Shown here one piece after another: positions 17,707-44,501 of a stretch of 60,765 bases of DNA. The stretch is from Flavobacteriales bacterium. Its GTDB lineage: Bacteria; Bacteroidota; Bacteroidia; CAIKAF01. The notes under the pieces were generated by a model. It did not search any database, was not told where the DNA came from, and saw only the letters and a program-made list of their open reading frames with translations. Location: contig JANWKT010000040.1 in assembly GCA_025451235.1 (NCBI GenBank), positions 1-60,765 on the forward strand, given 5' to 3'. How positions within the stretch are numbered: the stretch's first letter is position 1; every line of letters starts with the position of its first letter. The position numbers were made by a program, and so were the translations under genes.

Positions 17707-18627
17707 TTAAATGATTTCCATAGGATGTATACTATCCAGGGCTTGTGGATCATTATAATTGATCCGGTTGATATACTTTTCTGTGGTCGATGGCCATCTA
17801 TGGCCGGCCCAGTATTGGACTATTTCCAAAGGCTTTTTATGGATATTCAGCCAATTATGGATCACACTTTTCCTGATCAATTCTGCCGTCATGCGTTTAC
17901 CAGGAAATAATAACTTGTATTTATCTATAATGCTGCCAATACTGTCGGAACTGATCTTTTGTGTTCTGGAGGTTACAATGAGCGTGTTAATTGATTCTTC
18001 AGCAATATCACCTAAGAGTTTTTTTCTTCCTTCATTCAAATAGGTTTGGAAAACCATAAATTGAACCGGACTGAAGAATAGGTTTCTTGCTTGCCCACTA
18101 ACTGTATCCGGAATATAAATGACACCCTGGGACAGGTCTATATCATTAACAGTTAGACAGAGCAACTCTTCACTGGTCAGTCCCTGGTAAATGAGCAAAG
18201 AAATGACCACCATATTTCGTTGTTGGGCAAAAATGTATCGGGGGTTTTCTTTTTGAACAAAACTAAAAAATTCATCCAGCTCACCGGGTGAAAAAAGATC
18301 AGAAAAAACTATTCCCTTTTTCTTTGCTCCTTTTATAGAAAACCCATGAGGCAAGGGATGATCTTTCCTTTTGCCAATATGCACCAGGAAATGATATAAC
18401 CATTTGATAGCGGCCACTTTTCTCGTTATGCTGGTAGATATTCGGCCATCTTTACGTCTATACTGTTTATTAAGATCTGCCAAATAATTGGTAACATCCT
18501 GGTAAGTATAAGAATTGTATTCGGGGTTGGCCGAAATAAAATGTCCAATGTCGAACAGGTAGGCCTGGATAGTTTTCGGACTACCCACTTTGTCCTGCAT
18601 ATATTTTTCAAATAACATTTCATTCAT
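17707..18627 (-). CDS. Tyrosine recombinase with degenerate active site
   Basis: About 306 aa from ATG 18627, whose first bases overlap the upstream recombinase stop by 8 nt (ATGAATGA). The SAM-like N-domain (GSPKTIQAYLFDIGHF) and catalytic fold are recognisable. However, the first catalytic Arg is replaced (YQGLTSEELLCL where GxR is expected) and HxxR is changed (AELIRKS, His lost, Arg kept). GHRWPSTTEKYI keeps the later His and the Tyr. It may be inactive or act only as the partner of the intact enzyme, as in tandem recombinase sets. A longer frame from 18717 is unlikely. Confidence 0.7.
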   Translation of the reverse strand: MNEMLFEKYMQDKVGSPKTIQAYLFDIGHFISANPEYNSYTYQDVTNYLADLNKQYRRKDGRISTSITRKVAAIKWLYHFLVHIGKRKDHPLPHGFSIKGAKKKGIVFSDLFSPGELDEFFSFVQKENPRYIFAQQRNMVVISLLIYQGLTSEELLCLTVNDIDLSQGVIYIPDTVSGQARNLFFSPVQFMVFQTYLNEGRKKLLGDIAEESINTLIVTSRTQKISSDSIGSIIDKYKLLFPGKRMTAELIRKSVIHNWLNIHKKPLEIVQYWAGHRWPSTTEKYINRINYNDPQALDSIHPMEII

Positions 18628-19564
18628 AATATTTGATTTTGGATTGCCTGAGGCCAGGAAAAAGCTGTTTTTTTGACCTGGTATAAATATGAGTACTATC
18701 TGAGCAGCTATGTCCAAGGAATTGCTGGACCCAATTGATGTCCATTCCCCGCTCTATCAAATGAGTGGCAATGCTATGTCGGAGCAAGTGAGGGGTGACC
18801 CTTTTTTCGATAAGCCCCGGATTGGACGTTTTATTTGCCAGTTCTACTATATTTTTATGGATACTATCGTAACTTAACCGGCAGCCGGAGGTATTGAGGA
18901 GAAAGGCAGTTTCCGGTTTTGAATGGGTTCCATGCTTCAAAAGCCCTGGCCTTATTCTTCGCTCATATTCCTGTAGATAAAAGATACTTTTGGAGCTTAA
19001 AGGAATGGTTCGTGATTTTCTTCCTTTCCCTTCTCTTACAGTAATCATTCTCGAATGCGTATTTACATCTACGGCCTCCAACCAGTATATTTCTCTCCTT
19101 CGCATTCCACATGCATAGCAAAAAGTAAGTAAGACAGTTCCAATGGGATTATCTTCAGCGGCGTTGAATAAGTCCCTCACTTCTTCGATACTAAGTACAG
19201 GCTTAGGCTTACTATTACCTATGATCCTTTTGGGGAAGCCAATTGTATATGGAATTATATCCGCATAATGGGCGTAATCGAATAAGATCCTGATCCCGAA
19301 AAGATGATTCTTGATGGTTACTTTTGAAAGCATTCCCGCCTTTCGTTGGTTGGGTCTGGTCTTTAAGTATTCAATAAATCCATATACATCTTCCGATCGG
19401 ATCTTCTTTATGGCAGTAATACCTTGATATTCCATGTATTCGAAAAATTCGGAGGCTGAACGGATAAAATTTTTACGTGCTGCATAATTTACCGAACTTA
19501 AGTGCAAAATAAAGCCTTCTAATATTTTTTTAAACTCCACAGAGGTGTTCAGAAAAGGTTTCAT
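18620..19564 (-). CDS. Tyrosine recombinase (XerD/phage integrase type)
   Basis: The 314-aa protein has an N-terminal SAM-like domain (FILHLSSVNYAARKNFIRSA) and a full catalytic domain: GMRRREIYWLEAVDV (first Arg), basic hairpin GKGRKSR, HLLRHSIATHLIERG (HxxR), FLGHSCSDSTHIYTR (His, Tyr). It should catalyse site-specific DNA strand exchange. It is first in a two-gene operon with the degenerate partner. Its place next to the RHS tip array suggests it moves or rearranges those cassettes, or that the pair belongs to a separate small element. Confidence 0.85.
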   Translation of the reverse strand: MKPFLNTSVEFKKILEGFILHLSSVNYAARKNFIRSASEFFEYMEYQGITAIKKIRSEDVYGFIEYLKTRPNQRKAGMLSKVTIKNHLFGIRILFDYAHYADIIPYTIGFPKRIIGNSKPKPVLSIEEVRDLFNAAEDNPIGTVLLTFCYACGMRRREIYWLEAVDVNTHSRMITVREGKGRKSRTIPLSSKSIFYLQEYERRIRPGLLKHGTHSKPETAFLLNTSGCRLSYDSIHKNIVELANKTSNPGLIEKRVTPHLLRHSIATHLIERGMDINWVQQFLGHSCSDSTHIYTRSKKQLFPGLRQSKIKYYE

Positions 19565-22244: not shown

Positions 22245-22553
22245 ATGGATCGAATAACATTTGATCAATTACCGGATGCAGTCTCCTCCATATTGGATAA
22301 ATTGGACAGGATTGAGAAAAAATTGCAGGAGCAATCCCCTAAACCGTCTGAAACTACCGAACAACTTCTAACCTATGCTGATATTAGCAAAGAGTTTAAG
22401 ATAAGTCAGAAAACTTTGAAATTATTAAAAAAAATAGGCCAGCTAAAGCCCCTGTGCAAAGGGGGCCGATATCTCTTGTTTGAGCGTAACCATGTTATCC
22501 AGGTATTACAAACTAGGCCAAGAATTAAACCTCAATTTCTAAAAAATCAATAG
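22245..22553 (+). CDS. Excisionase-type HTH protein
   Basis: The 102-aa protein has an N-terminal coiled coil (SSILDKLDRIEKKLQEQ) and a winged HTH (LLTYADISKEFKISQKTLKL followed by LKKIGQLKPLCKGGRYLLFE). This is the Bacteroidota excisionase/HTH_17 type. Its 3' end overlaps the convergent integrase gene by 7 nt. The pairing suggests it controls integrase directionality. Confidence 0.75.
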   Translation: MDRITFDQLPDAVSSILDKLDRIEKKLQEQSPKPSETTEQLLTYADISKEFKISQKTLKLLKKIGQLKPLCKGGRYLLFERNHVIQVLQTRPRIKPQFLKNQ

Positions 22554-23755
22554 TCCTTATAACTCAATAAGCCCTTAGCCTTTTGTTTTTGATCTGCTTT
22601 GATATATGTTAAAAAAACAGCCTCATTTTTATGGCCGGACGCTGCCATAATAAGATTATTCGGAATTCCTTTCAACCACATATTGGTGCAAAAACTTTTC
22701 CTTGATATATGATAGCTTATAAGATCTGCCTTTCGGAAAATTCCCTTTGTATGGGTAGTATTGACTTTTATTTTCTCCTGCAACAGATTGTGCTCACTCA
22801 AAACCCTTCTAATTATTTCGTTTGCCTTTTGATTGGAGATTTGTAAGAATGAGTAATTATTTTGCTTGGCAATTCTTATCGCCCTTTCCTTAATAATTGG
22901 AACATCAACTTGTATTCCAGTTTTAGCTTGCTTGTAACTGAGCCAATAGCCCTCTTTTGATTTATGAATGAAATTTTCCTTCGATAAACGAGTAGTATCT
23001 TCAAAACGAACTGCTGTATAGCAGGAAAAACAAAATGCACTAATAACTCTATTTTCATTACCGGTTAGTTGCAAATTAGCAATACTTTCTATCTCTTGTT
23101 CATTTAGATATAAATGAATAGTATCCTCGGCCAATTCACTTCTATTAGCTCTTTTAACATTTTGAAAGTCAATATTTTTGTGAAGACCCTCTTCCAGTCC
23201 TCTATTCAGAAATGTTTTAAGAATCTTTTTATGCTTATCTATGGTTGAAATACCGGAGGTCCCAATTTTCTTCAGCCAATTCTCATACTCATTAAACCAT
23301 CGCTTAGTCATATCCTCAAAACATAAGTCAACCTTTTTTTGTGAATGTAAATATACTATGACATTGTTCAAAGTAACTTTATAGGTCCTAACTGTCCCAT
23401 AGCTATGTGCCAGAGTGTTGATCTGTCTTCTGAAGTATTCTATAAAACTATTATTTGCACTATTTGAAATGAGCTTAAAAAATTTCCTATCTAAATGTTG
23501 CATAACATCTTCCTTTGATATGGGCCTACCTTCCCTTTTTGCATCTAGGATAAATGTATCCACTTCATGCTGGAATTTTTTTAACCATTGATTTGTTGAG
23601 TTAACCAACTCCCCTTCACCACGAAAAATTTGCTTTTGCTGGTTCCAATCCATTTTTCCCTGCTCAATTGAAATCCTTGGGTAAAACTTGTGAGTTTTCC
23701 CATCAATAGTGGCGTGCAGGTATATTGAATTTCTTGCGATTCCGTACTTTGGCAT
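22547..23755 (-). CDS. Bacteroidota-type tyrosine integrase
   Basis: The 402-aa protein has an arm-type DNA-binding region (about 1-60: IARNSIYLHATIDGKTHKFY), a SAM-like core-binding domain (about 120-210) and a catalytic domain: TAVRFEDTTRL (Arg), YKQAKTGIQVDVPI (Lys), YHISRKSFCTNMWL (HxxR), SGHKNEAVFLTYIK (His, nucleophile Tyr). This is the integrase of genomic islands and conjugative transposons of this phylum. Palindrome-rich DNA at 23958-24091 may lie near the island end. No att core could be confirmed. Confidence 0.9.
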   Translation of the reverse strand: MPKYGIARNSIYLHATIDGKTHKFYPRISIEQGKMDWNQQKQIFRGEGELVNSTNQWLKKFQHEVDTFILDAKREGRPISKEDVMQHLDRKFFKLISNSANNSFIEYFRRQINTLAHSYGTVRTYKVTLNNVIVYLHSQKKVDLCFEDMTKRWFNEYENWLKKIGTSGISTIDKHKKILKTFLNRGLEEGLHKNIDFQNVKRANRSELAEDTIHLYLNEQEIESIANLQLTGNENRVISAFCFSCYTAVRFEDTTRLSKENFIHKSKEGYWLSYKQAKTGIQVDVPIIKERAIRIAKQNNYSFLQISNQKANEIIRRVLSEHNLLQEKIKVNTTHTKGIFRKADLISYHISRKSFCTNMWLKGIPNNLIMAASGHKNEAVFLTYIKADQKQKAKGLLSYKDY

Positions 23756-23957
23756 ATGGTAGGTGTTGCAGAATTGTTTTTTTATACTAAGTTTAGACCA
23801 AAACTACTGATTTATATGGATTTTATGCAACAGTTTTGCAACACTTTTACCTAATTTTAAGGGTGATTTCAGGGTTCTTCAAAAATCAACAAAACATCTA
23901 TACATATTGATAACAAAGGGATACAGAAGAATCATAAGAAACCCTCAAAACACTATG

Positions 23958-24091
23958 TGAGGTCCGCTCGGGACCTCAGAGAATACAAAAAAGCTCCCTT
24001 AAGGGGAGCTTTTTTGTTGAATAAAGATCCGATGCAAGCGCCAGCTTGCATAAGGATCTTTATTCAACAAAAAGAGCAGCTGAAAGCTGCT
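23958..24091. repeat. Four stacked hairpins, including a 63-bp near-perfect palindrome
   Basis: TGAGGTCC/GGACCTCA at 23958-23978. A terminator-like GCTCCC/GGGAGC with A6/T6 flanks at 23987-24015. A long palindrome 24011-24073 whose outer arms are 20-bp perfect (TTTTTGTTGAATAAAGATCC) with an inner 8-bp ATGCAAGC/GCTTGCAT. Then AGCAGCtgaaaGCTGCT at 24075-24091. The second and third hairpins compete for the same T tract. The stack sits between the integrase and chromosome-like genes and may be a palindromic mobile unit or an att region. Confidence 0.7.
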
Positions 24092-24158
24092 TTTGTATTT
24101 TGACCTTAGGCATGCCCTATGCGGATCATGAAATAATCCGTTCAACATGTTCCAAAAA

Positions 24159-24989
24159 TTAATCAATTGGAATATTCACTGCCACTCCCACCCTGAATTG
24201 AAAGAATTGCATGGGTTGCCGAGCTTCTACATGCTTTCGTTCGATCTTTAATTCATTGTCGACTTCTTCTACATATAACAATTCTTTTTTGTACGTCGGA
24301 TTCATAGATTGAAATGCCATTCCACCAAAGATGGATACTTCTTCGTTGAGGAAATAGTTGACCTGTACACCCAAGTTATAATAACTGGTTTTTGTGGAAC
24401 GACCTGAACCTCCTTCAAAAGGAAAATATTGACTGAAATCTTCCGGAACATAACTTCCGCCAACAATCCTGTACCTGGGTGCATATACGTACATCAATCC
24501 AAATTTCAACGTGCCTTCAACGCTGAATTTCTCCATGACATATAAGGCACTGACTTCAAATCCTGCACCCCAGGCAAACCATTGACTGTTCTTAGGTGAA
24601 GTAAACCCGGTATTGCTATAAGGATCATTGGCAAAAGCCGTTTGTAACTGCGGATTGAGTTTACTTGAATTGATCGGTAAGAAATACATGGGGAAGGTAA
24701 CTCCTGTACCTACCCTAAAGTGGTCGCTGTATCCTATATTATGGTAATACATACCTTCCAATTCAAACGAATGACCTAGCTTTGCATAGCCTTCACCTCC
24801 CCTACCCGCATTCGCAAAATCTCCTACAGGTGTAATAAAACCATACGAAGCAGATACAACCGGTCCTATTTTTTCGTATTCAAAAAATTTCCCTCCACTG
24901 GCAAAAACCCTTTGGTGAGAAACCAGAAATCCGATAAAAATAAGGCTAAAAATAATGAATGTGTTTTTTAAGCTTGTTGATGTTTTCAT
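24159..24989 (-). CDS. Outer-membrane beta-barrel protein, copy 1
   Basis: The 276-aa protein has a signal peptide (to about residue 31) and amphipathic beta-strands throughout (VVSASYGFITPVGDFANAGR, YYNLGVQVNYFLNEEVSIFG), ending FFQFRVGVAVNIPID. It is paralogous to the protein at 25502-26308: both share FEYEKIGPVVSASYGF / YEHDKIEGVAAASYNL, the NAGR motif and RF-WFAWG. It is preceded on the same strand by a lipoprotein gene, and the two-gene unit is duplicated. A small-molecule or adhesin-like role cannot be decided. Confidence 0.7.
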   Translation of the reverse strand: MKTSTSLKNTFIIFSLIFIGFLVSHQRVFASGGKFFEYEKIGPVVSASYGFITPVGDFANAGRGGEGYAKLGHSFELEGMYYHNIGYSDHFRVGTGVTFPMYFLPINSSKLNPQLQTAFANDPYSNTGFTSPKNSQWFAWGAGFEVSALYVMEKFSVEGTLKFGLMYVYAPRYRIVGGSYVPEDFSQYFPFEGGSGRSTKTSYYNLGVQVNYFLNEEVSIFGGMAFQSMNPTYKKELLYVEEVDNELKIERKHVEARQPMQFFQFRVGVAVNIPID

Positions 24990-25004
24990 GTGGTTAGGTT
25001 TTTA

Positions 25005-25394
25005 CTATTTTTCTAATTGAGTAAGTTCAATAGGCTGTAAGCCTCCTAGAGAAGAATCCTGACCAATCGCAATGCGGTCAACCACCAAAGCTGAAAAATA
25101 AATACGTTCCCATTTGATCTTTACTTCATTGGGTAGATTACAGGGATAATAAATGGAAGAAGATCCATCCGGAAGGATGACCCATCTTTTTTCGGGCACA
25201 CCATTGATCTCCACATCAATCAACGAAACGGTCCCCATTTGACGATCGAGTGTATCAAGTATGGCCGGAGAGGATGAATAGGAACACGATACCACAGGAA
25301 CTGGAGGTGAAGTATCAACTCCGAAAAAACTACAGGAAGATATACAAAGGGAAAGAAGCAAAAGAAAGAAAGATCTACTTCTGAGTGGGTTCAT
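25005..25394 (-). CDS. Lipoprotein, copy 1
   Basis: The 129-aa protein has a lipobox around SSCSFFG (Cys21). It shares with the second copy at 26325 the order: short N-terminal region, MGTVSLIDVEING..., then RWVILPDGSSSIYYPCNLPN and IELTQLEK. It is 15 nt upstream of its barrel partner. Function unknown; probably an envelope accessory of the barrel protein. Confidence 0.65.
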   Translation of the reverse strand: MNPLRSRSFFLLLLSLCISSCSFFGVDTSPPVPVVSCSYSSSPAILDTLDRQMGTVSLIDVEINGVPEKRWVILPDGSSSIYYPCNLPNEVKIKWERIYFSALVVDRIAIGQDSSLGGLQPIELTQLEK

Positions 25395-25501
25395 AAGTTT
25401 GGCTTTAGTTAGAACTAAATTAAATGAAATAAGAATGGGTAAAACTTAAAAAGGTTTAAATGGTTAGTTTAATTATTGAACGGCAAGATGTGGTGAAATC
25501 A

Positions 25502-26308
25502 TCAATAAAATTCTGTATGAATATGTAGGATAACACCTAGTCTTAACTGAAAGAACATCATTTCTTGTGAAGTGGTAAATTGTCTTCGAACCAGGGTGGG
25601 TTCGTTGTTGATCATCTCCGTATATAAGAGATCTTTTTCAAAACTAGGCTTGGCATAGGTAAAACTGGCCCCTGCAAATAATCCAAAACAATCACCTACA
25701 AAATAATTCACCTGCAACCCTGTGGAAAAATAAGGCGAAAACCCAGCTTTGGTGGGATGTCCTTCGGTTGGAAAAAATACACTGTAATCGGGCGGGACAT
25801 AATTACCATTGTAAATGGTATAGTCAGGTGGTTTTGCTACCAGCAATCCTATTTTTAAATTTCCTTCCAAACTTAAACGGTCCCATCTATACAATGCAGC
25901 TCCCTGGGCTGCAATGCCCCAGGCAAACCATCGGTTGTGTTTGGGTAAACCAAATTGAGTATTCCCAATGGTATCTGCTTTAAATGCTGAGGTTAAATTT
26001 TGTTGAAGGGATACATCGTTCGTGGGGAAAAAATAAAAGGGCATATTTCCTCCAACACCTACTCTCCATCTTTCGCCTAATTCAAAATAGTATAGACCTT
26101 CAATTTCCAATCCATGTCCTGGTTGGGCAAATCCACCCGGATCGCGACCTGCGTTTTTAAAATTACCCACGGGTAATAATAAATTATAAGAAGCCGCGGC
26201 TACCCCTTCAATTTTATCGTGTTCATATATGCATAAAAAATATCCTCCGGCCCTTAAGCCTGTAGTTATTAATAATCCTGTAATTAAAAGTATGAATGCT
26301 TTTTTCAT
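25502..26308 (-). CDS. Outer-membrane beta-barrel protein, copy 2
   Basis: The 268-aa paralogue of the protein at 24159-24989 has a signal peptide (MKKAFILLITGLLITTGLRA) and the same landmarks: YEHDKI, PVGNFKNAGRDPGGFAQPGH, HNRWFAWGIAAQGAALYRWD, LQVNYFVGDCFGLFAGASFT and a C-terminal FFQLRLGVILHI. It lies 16 nt downstream of its lipoprotein partner. Tandem duplication of the two-gene unit is clear. Confidence 0.7.
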   Translation of the reverse strand: MKKAFILLITGLLITTGLRAGGYFLCIYEHDKIEGVAAASYNLLLPVGNFKNAGRDPGGFAQPGHGLEIEGLYYFELGERWRVGVGGNMPFYFFPTNDVSLQQNLTSAFKADTIGNTQFGLPKHNRWFAWGIAAQGAALYRWDRLSLEGNLKIGLLVAKPPDYTIYNGNYVPPDYSVFFPTEGHPTKAGFSPYFSTGLQVNYFVGDCFGLFAGASFTYAKPSFEKDLLYTEMINNEPTLVRRQFTTSQEMMFFQLRLGVILHIHTEFY

Positions 26309-26324
26309 AAGGATGTATTTAAGT

Positions 26325-26708
26325 TTATTTTTCAGTCCATATTTGGGTTAATTCAATCTGCTCCATACCGGCTACCAACGTATCCGTAAAATTATCATCC
26401 ACCACATGACCCCTGAACCAGATCTTTTGCCAATCTCTTTTAAGTGTATCCGGTAAATTGCAGGGTAAATAGATCTTATCGGAAGGCTGGTCCGGCAGGA
26501 TCAACCATTTATCGAAATACTGGCCTTGAATGTTGGATTGAATATAAACGACGTGACCTTCCATTTCATTGATATTCCCAATCACCGAACATTGTCCTGT
26601 GCAACATTCCTGCACCATATAGTATTCATATTCTGGTTCGAAAAAGTCGCAGGACGAAAAACAAAGCAGTATGAGTATTGAGTAGAAAAAGTGACGAGGA
26701 GATTTCAT
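26325..26708 (-). CDS. Lipoprotein, copy 2
   Basis: The 127-aa protein has a lipobox at FSSCDFF (Cys20) and parallels the gene at 25005: YFDKWLILPDQPSDKIYLPC, NLPDTLKRDWQKIWFRGHVV, IELTQIW. Extra Cys residues (QECCTGQC) occur near residue 35-40. It is the first gene of the duplicated unit. Confidence 0.65.
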   Translation of the reverse strand: MKSPRHFFYSILILLCFSSCDFFEPEYEYYMVQECCTGQCSVIGNINEMEGHVVYIQSNIQGQYFDKWLILPDQPSDKIYLPCNLPDTLKRDWQKIWFRGHVVDDNFTDTLVAGMEQIELTQIWTEK

Positions 26709-44243: not shown

Positions 44244-44366
44244 TATTCTATTGATTTTACGGCAAATTTAGGGAATTGGGAGGTATTTTACAAGGAAAAT
44301 ATAGGCGCCTGCACCTCCCCTGTTGCCCACACCTGTAACCCAGGTGCACCGGGCTGTTCGCTGTAT

Positions 44367-44452
44367 CTTTTCAGATGCCAGAGGTCGGATATTAGAAGAA
44401 AATCAGCAAAAAATGGCTGAACACCTACATCCGACCTCTGGCCTCTGAAAAG
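44367..44452. repeat. Long stem-loop upstream of ahcY
   Basis: CTTTTCAGA and GCCAGAGGTCGGAT pair with ATCCGACCTCTGGC and TCTGAAAAG (9 + 14 bp), with a loop of about 38 nt. It is MITE-like or an RNA hairpin. It lies between the divergent ahcY and 44638 genes, an otherwise gene-free 393-bp region. Confidence 0.65.
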
Positions 44453-44501
44453 GATGCCGCTTCCATCCCTGGCGCAAAACAACAAAGCTGACGTTCAAAA
44501 G

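Follow-up and report, generated by a model that had tools for sequence, protein, structure and literature searches.

Islands of tyrosine recombinases in tRNA genes carry an integrase gene at their edge and a tRNA 3' end at both junctions. In E. coli, tandem repeats of somewhat under 200 bp, each with the 3' end of tRNA-Tyr, lie behind the tRNA at one locus, tyrT. REP/BIME and MITE-like elements are small, gene-less, palindromic and patchy. GIY-YIG homing endonucleases (PF01541) are a fourth system that bears on the locus described here.

This locus lies in the window, i.e. the whole stretch of DNA that was analysed, which is the entire contig C40 (60,765 bp) of a draft genome of 4.28 Mb in 46 contigs. 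Window positions 1-23977 resemble the tRNA-gene islands in their integrase at the edge and the tRNA 3' end at both junctions, whereas the palindrome element to the right is gene-less and is found at many tRNA types within a single genome. The element is like the tyrT repeats in size, in its place behind a tRNA and in having a tRNA 3' end, but it occurs at many tRNA types and in many families with a shared fold, while those repeats are known from one locus. It is likewise as small, gene-less, palindromic and patchy as the REP/BIME and MITE-like elements; unlike in these, the arm sequences are not conserved, and the fold, the tip, the position behind a tRNA and the host-matched ends are what stays constant. 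The homing endonucleases resemble small GIY-YIG ORFs that we found behind five sampled tRNA terminators, each followed by a repeat of the tRNA 3' end, whereas the element of the window encodes nothing. No description of such elements at tRNA 3' ends was found in Rfam or among the open-licence papers listed. The best explanation of the locus, to which we give a probability of about 0.55, is that two things abut here, an island integrated in tRNA-Cys and a resident structured element to its right.

Features of the palindrome stack

The following features were identified in the window (signs give the strand, where one applies):

22547-23755 (-): tyrosine integrase of the island (Pfam Phage_int_SAM_5 and Phage_integrase, E 7e-9)
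23821-23848 (+): island-end motif, a TGCAACAG-type direct repeat, 93% identical over 28 bp with C20:227787-227814
23958-23978: small hairpin TGAGGTCC/GGACCTCA across the junction, with its left arm in island DNA and its right arm in the tRNA-Cys 3' end
23963-23977 (+): attachment core at the right junction, the last 15 bases of tRNA-Cys (two-copy search, flank-joining test)
23980-23988 (+): outer stem, 5' strand (fold)
23985-24017: H1, terminator-like hairpin, taken as the native tRNA-Cys terminator (inverted-repeat search)
24011-24073: P, the 63-bp palindrome (inverted-repeat search, fold, descriptor count)
24032-24051: tip of P, ATGCAAGC-GCCA-GCTTGCAT (sequence; CAAGC..GCTTG-like tips in relatives)
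24074-24092: H2, second hairpin (fold), terminator-like for transcription from the right; read from the sequence as AGCAGC/GCTGCT at 24075-24091
24093-24101 (+): outer stem, 3' strand (fold)
24102-24117 (+): linker GACCTTAGGCATGCCC, similar in the relatives G001 and G004
24121-24140 (+): tail, a copy of the tRNA-Cys T-arm with an enlarged loop and a worn right end (comparison with the host tRNA and relatives)

The original prediction of a palindrome stack proved to be real: P has perfect 20-nt inverted arms (24011-24030 and 24054-24073) with 23 nt between them, it overlaps the terminator-like hairpin H1, a perfect 14-nt inverted repeat (23985-23998 and 24004-24017), and two more hairpins adjoin. 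H1 has an A-tract in front and a T-tract behind. Both H1 and H2 show the GC-rich hairpin and following T-run of an intrinsic terminator, and no T-run follows P on the plus strand. To the right of the stack, a gene (24159-24989) is oriented towards it. This gene belongs to two consecutive pairs, each of a 268-276-aa protein and a small putative lipoprotein, which form a tandem duplication (24159-26708); the 268-276-aa proteins are 42% identical to each other and have no Pfam match. The sole Rfam match in the window, a Flavo-1 RNA (RF01705) at 44343-44478 on the minus strand, scores 44.6 bits, just above the gathering score, and is far from the stack.

Integration of the island at tRNA-Cys

The window region 23760-24160 was searched against 60 genomes, the window's own and 59 relatives. 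Besides the own genome, just two of these gave strong matches, namely G001 of the same genus (77%, E 2e-27) and G004 of the same family (68%, E 1e-8); both matches start at window position 23963, end at about 24140 and are preceded by an intact tRNA-Cys gene. The last 15 bases of tRNA-Cys, TCCGCTCGGGACCTC, have exactly two copies in the window's genome at up to one mismatch, one at 23963-23977 and one on contig C20 (227742-227756), where they end an intact tRNA-Cys; the sequence behind it is a different one and has a terminator-like hairpin of its own. When the C20 flank was joined to the window from 23978 onward, one unbroken alignment was obtained with G001 (287 bp, 80%) and with G004 (242 bp, 74%), while without joining, the C20 side halts at the tRNA end and the window side begins at 23963. 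Therefore, the right junction is 23963-23977, and the chromosome continues from 23978.

G001 and G004 are thus island-free relatives with an empty site. In G001, a counterpart of the C20 gene that precedes tRNA-Cys lies in the corresponding position (50% over 90 aa). None of six proteins of the right flank of the window had a match on the G001 or G004 contigs, indicating that the right flank was rearranged between these genomes. The protein of the gene at 24159-24989 was discarded as a synteny anchor, having no match in the 59 other genomes.

The tRNA-Cys 3' end is the integration site of a tyrosine-recombinase island, whose left junction lies on C20 together with the intact tRNA-Cys; the integrase is at the edge, the tRNA 3' end is repeated at both ends and the whole tRNA is present at one. 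The 28-bp motif is common to both island ends, with the C20 copy 30 bp inside that end, and may be an arm site of the integrase. If the two ends, which are on different contigs, belong to one island, it comprises at least C20 from 227757 to the contig end and positions 1-23977 of the window. Two more overlapping tyrosine recombinase ORFs lie inside the island (17707-19564, minus strand).

Placing the stack at the island edge was right to within bases, and the comparison with strains lacking the island that had been proposed as a check, made here with G001 and G004, mapped the attachment core to 23963-23977. The idea that the stack might be the attachment region holds for its leftmost small hairpin, which contains the tRNA-Cys 3' end. 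It does not hold for the 63-bp palindrome, which was rejected as the core because it is chromosomal and present behind tRNA-Cys in the two island-free relatives. The island edge is now fixed to the base, and a palindrome that adjoins an island is not necessarily the site at which the island attached.

A structured element behind tRNA-Cys

Non-coding structured elements of about 150-175 bp are found at the 3' ends of many tRNA genes, and the palindrome stack is a resident copy of such an element. Its parts, which together span about 160 bp, are the tRNA terminator H1, P with a CAAGC..GCTTG-like tip, H2, the outer stem and the T-arm-copy tail, in this order. H1, P and H2 fold as three arms inside the outer stem in the window and in G001; for G004, one fold differs and another shows the same three arms. 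The H1-P-H2 fold of the window starts at a tRNA 3' end, namely at the tRNA-Cys remnant.

The frequency of this arrangement was determined at 147 distinct tRNA-Cys loci (146 distinct among 148 fetched, and the window), which are most but not all of the matches listed, 257 of 395 genomes having matched. With a descriptor whose limits were set after examples had been seen (P of 52-72 nt with a tip hairpin, plus H2 in place), the arrangement was detected at 18 of the 147 loci, compared with 2 of 1470 dinucleotide shuffles and none of 836 control windows taken from further downstream; L208, which is among the 18, has no typical tip and is doubtful. Simple folding yielded the three-branch fold at 13 of 147 loci and in 24 of 1470 shuffles, so folding energy alone separates poorly and was abandoned as a detector. 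P measured 59-66 nt in all 13 real three-branch cases. The tips are mostly CAAGC..GCTTG or close variants, while the arms differ widely, even between the two units of the array in G386.

Without L208, the 18 loci carry the family labels f1, f5, f9, f21, f24, f33, f41 and f61, and copies added by eye in f14 and f52 bring the number of labels to ten. Within this range the distribution is patchy: the element is behind tRNA-Cys in 4 of 16 genomes of the window's own family group f1, and in the genus g4 it is present in G004 and absent from the tRNA-Cys loci of G008, G010 and G012. Many relatives have only one simple hairpin behind tRNA-Cys. The exact tail pattern was too narrow as a detector, being found in 3 of 395 genomes, always at tRNA-Cys, and on two named contigs, which belong to the same two relatives. 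A plasmid collection gave six weak partial matches, none of which covered 80% of the query. An element defined by structure, with host-matched ends and ten family labels in one bacterial class, represents a new feature to annotate.

The two terminator-like hairpins and the gene pointing to the stack are also what would be expected of transcription punctuation, i.e. back-to-back terminators between tRNA-Cys and a convergent operon, with the palindrome as a by-product of the A- and T-tracts that is kept by the host. We consider this improbable, since such tracts cannot yield perfect 20-bp arms and an approximately 60-nt P whose tip recurs across many families, since many relatives manage with the one simple hairpin, and since the tandem copies and repeated tRNA 3' ends described below would be left unexplained.

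Occurrence of the element behind other tRNA genes

The descriptor also detected the arrangement in 5 of 81 distinct stretches that follow other tRNAs in four genomes (tRNA-Val, -Leu and -Pro in G000, tRNA-Pro in G006 and tRNA-Pro in G386). A covariance model was then built from 15 tRNA-adjacent copies and run over 8 genomes, in 7 of which 150 of 964 to 1938 first-look candidates were scored; with this training set and this number of candidates, copies elsewhere may be missed. From the candidates scored, the model returned 30 loci, two of which were opposite-strand matches of sites already counted, leaving 28 distinct ones. Of these, 24 adjoin or follow a tRNA on the same strand, at a distance of no more than 369 nt: 19 have their start between -4 and +3 nt from the tRNA 3' end (7 Cys and 12 Val, Pro, Leu, Lys, Gln or Ser), and 5 lie 168-369 nt downstream. 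One further locus abuts tRNA-Arg and was matched on the other strand, and the remaining three of the 28 (the window, L293 and L308) are without a tRNA. Leaving out 12 training sites, 8 of 16 were within -4 to +3 nt, 5 further downstream, 1 beside tRNA-Arg and 2 without a tRNA.

Counted by coordinates in four genomes, with second units and one partly overlapping site taken separately, 21 of 30 sites fall within 600 nt downstream of a listed tRNA. The other nine comprise four matches with E <1e-5 (the window, L293, L308 and L313) and five with E 1e-4 or worse. The former four, each in a different genome, are thus good matches with no intact tRNA adjoining. At L308 (contig C29 of G006), the element copy adjoins a short RNA-3'-end-like stretch instead of a tRNA, with a Phage_integrase gene beyond it, in the same order of parts as in the window; L308 may therefore be a second island that split an RNA gene from its element. 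The RNA-3'-end-like stretches at L293 and L308 might conceivably be tmRNA; neither Rfam nor ARAGORN reported a tmRNA at these two loci.

In the window's genome, the element is behind six tRNA genes (Val, Leu, two Pro, Ser and Lys) besides the Cys remnant, and one weak match (C24:292613, E 2.6e-4) is not near a tRNA. A gene-less folded element thus recurs directly behind many tRNA genes in this bacterial class and is probably spreading there. The signs of mobility are patchiness, repeats and shared sites in draft genomes, many of them metagenome assemblies, in which no movement was seen.

The original prediction had alternatively proposed a REP-like mobile unit. Five Y1_Tnp matches in the genome and the palindromic unit would suit a REP/BIME spread by a RAYT transposase. 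However, the genome search for other arm copies that had been suggested came back empty: when the 17-base arm and the tip were each allowed up to 2 mismatches, no second paired copy was present in the genome, so the palindrome is no ordinary REP. As the sites were moreover found mostly at tRNA 3' ends, a RAYT-spread unit is extremely unlikely. What survives of the proposal is mobility in a wider sense, since the palindrome is, by its structure, part of a family of elements scattered over tRNA 3' ends, and the suggestion that the region might be both attachment site and mobile unit was nearly right, as two adjacent things.

In 44 model-fitted matches, 89.2% of the cells pair, compared with 60.8% when shuffled, and changes on both sides were observed in 32 of 34 base pairs; sliding the partners removes the signal, the size of which is inflated because the alignment is model-fitted, contains sequences used for training and has several palindromes that were counted on both strands. 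This strong covariation and the conserved tip would agree with a structured RNA that has a function and is produced together with the tRNA or close to it, such as a processed trailer RNA; it would be encoded by the host and not mobile. We regard this as very unlikely: H1 and H2 would be expected to end transcription from either side before it reaches P, the presence is patchy, and Rfam has no match for the element at the gathering score (36 sub-threshold matches, best E 9.8e-5), for which reason a known RNA family was also rejected as its identity.

Tail, repeated tRNA 3' ends and tandem arrays

After the outer stem, the arms of the tail hairpin match the T-stem of the host tRNA, and the loop is enlarged. 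The window shows such a host-matched tail, GCGG-ATCATGAAATA-ATCCG as compared with GCGG-TTCGA-ATCCGC in the tRNA. The same change appears in tail and tRNA of G001 (GCAG..ATCTGC in both), and at tRNA-Pro of G006 both have CAAG..ATCTTGC. The compensatory change between the window and G001 had raised the suspicion that the tail is a conserved minus-strand small RNA, a reading that was dropped because the tail follows the T-arm of the host tRNA.

In several copies, a host tRNA 3' end follows the element again. A 17-base tRNA 3'-end match with 0-3 mismatches, better than in all 200 shuffles per locus, was found after the element at 6 of 21 loci (L092, L097, L107, L180, L183 and L208); the other 15, including the window, have no clear further tRNA 3' end, and only ATCCG remains in the window. 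Exact repeats of 16-19 nt of the host tRNA 3' end follow the element in 7 copies, which are listed with a shorter one:

tRNA-Val, G000: 17 nt at +155
tRNA-Pro, G000: 17 nt at +157
tRNA-Pro, G386: 19 nt at +158
tRNA-Pro, G343: 17 nt at +143
tRNA-Pro, G076: 17 nt at +351
tRNA-Ser, G147: 17 nt at +155
tRNA-Cys, G386: 16 nt at +152
tRNA-Cys, G147: 13 nt (shorter)

At tRNA-Pro of G000 and of G386, the terminator is repeated as well. No repeat of at least 10 nt was detected in the Leu, Lys and Gln copies, two of three element-adjacent Ser copies, two Pro copies and most Cys copies of the same comparison, nor in the further Pro, Ser, Lys and Val copies read.

Self-repeats were observed downstream in 11 of 20 tRNA-Cys copies. 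The similarity is limited to the right part of the unit in nine of these, not all of which are true truncations because a left arm exists in diverged form in some (L183 and L082), and extends over nearly the whole unit in two (G386 and G378). After the array in G071, the native flank resumes as in the element-free relatives of the same genus, G028 and G107, and H1 of G071 resembles the terminator of the element-free relatives of its genus.

The main rival to nuclease-assisted copying, our preferred model of spread, is that the copies are mini-elements or scars moved by tyrosine recombinases, carrying a tRNA-matched attachment sequence, with the tail as an ordinary right junction. The island of the window uses the same spot, the copy at L308 has an integrase gene close by, beyond the RNA-3'-end-like stretch, and the left arm of the tail, which matches the host T-stem, is what the attachment core of an element could supply. 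Against these points stand that one integrase normally serves one tRNA, whereas one structural family is seen here at many tRNA types, in this genome at six tRNA genes in addition to that for Cys, each with host-matched ends; that there is no integrase gene within the elements; and that left-incomplete tandem units would not be expected. We take this origin to be a real alternative but a rather doubtful one.

Other rearranged tRNA ends were encountered. Behind tRNA-Cys, L078 (G059), L074 (G139) and L208 (G138) contain tandem units that each have a tRNA 3' end and a terminator-like hairpin and no typical P. Upstream of the intact tRNA-Cys on C20 (L048:1353-1443), two tandem 5' halves of tRNA-Cys have the D-arm replaced by a TCCGCCAAGGCGGA hairpin, which is the mirror image, at the 5' end, of the effect of the element on the T-arm.

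GIY-YIG genes at similar sites and a possible mode of spread

A small ORF lies behind the terminator of five sampled tRNAs, and each ORF is followed by an exact repeat of the tRNA 3' end (17/17) 315-349 nt downstream. These ORFs are located in two genomes:

L243, L251 and L269 (G157): behind tRNA-Val, tRNA-His and tRNA-Met
L259 (G000:C7:93240-94013): behind tRNA-Met
L265 (G000:C25:151355-152128): behind tRNA-Asp

All five ORFs tested contain a GIY-YIG domain, and these units are possibly autonomous nuclease elements that target tRNA genes. At tRNA-His of G157, the GIY-YIG ORF is followed by an element of the window's type. The sharing of sites, which is the sole link between the two, suggests that GIY-YIG proteins may help the gene-less element.

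Read from left to right, the element takes the terminator of the host tRNA as H1 and adds a palindromic arm of about 60 nt with a conserved tip, then the second hairpin and a tail with a copy of the host T-arm whose loop is replaced, after which the host 3' end comes again in several copies and the terminator in some. In the nuclease-assisted copying model, we tentatively propose that spread occurs by a cut or nick near the conserved T-arm and terminator of a tRNA gene, followed by copying-in of the element from its right end, as in target-primed copying. Such copying could duplicate host sequence and leave left-incomplete tandem copies. The cut might be supplied by a nuclease in trans, perhaps by the small GIY-YIG proteins found at the same kind of site. 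In the window, the copy has a worn right end, and the island later separated it from its tRNA.

Taken in its widest form, which we hold to be possible if clearly short of even odds, this would describe a class of selfish, gene-less elements of Bacteroidia not described before, which target the T-arm and terminator of almost any tRNA gene, keep the host tRNA whole by means of a 3'-end copy, disguise the copied T-arm by a changed loop, retain their fold while the arm sequences turn over, and are moved in trans by tiny GIY-YIG nucleases, perhaps by target-primed copying. The recurrence of the element with host-matched ends makes it possible to test in what way such tiny gene-less units could target tRNA genes and leave them intact.

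At tRNA-Phe of G157 (L239) and tRNA-Gln of G001 (L325), short inserts of about 100 bp lie behind the terminator, and 17 nt of the tRNA 3' end are repeated exactly after them. Finally, two tRNA-Cys genes with an identical matched stretch lie 2.4 kb apart on one contig (G360:C21:43567 and 45944), perhaps enclosing a small tRNA-bounded insert.
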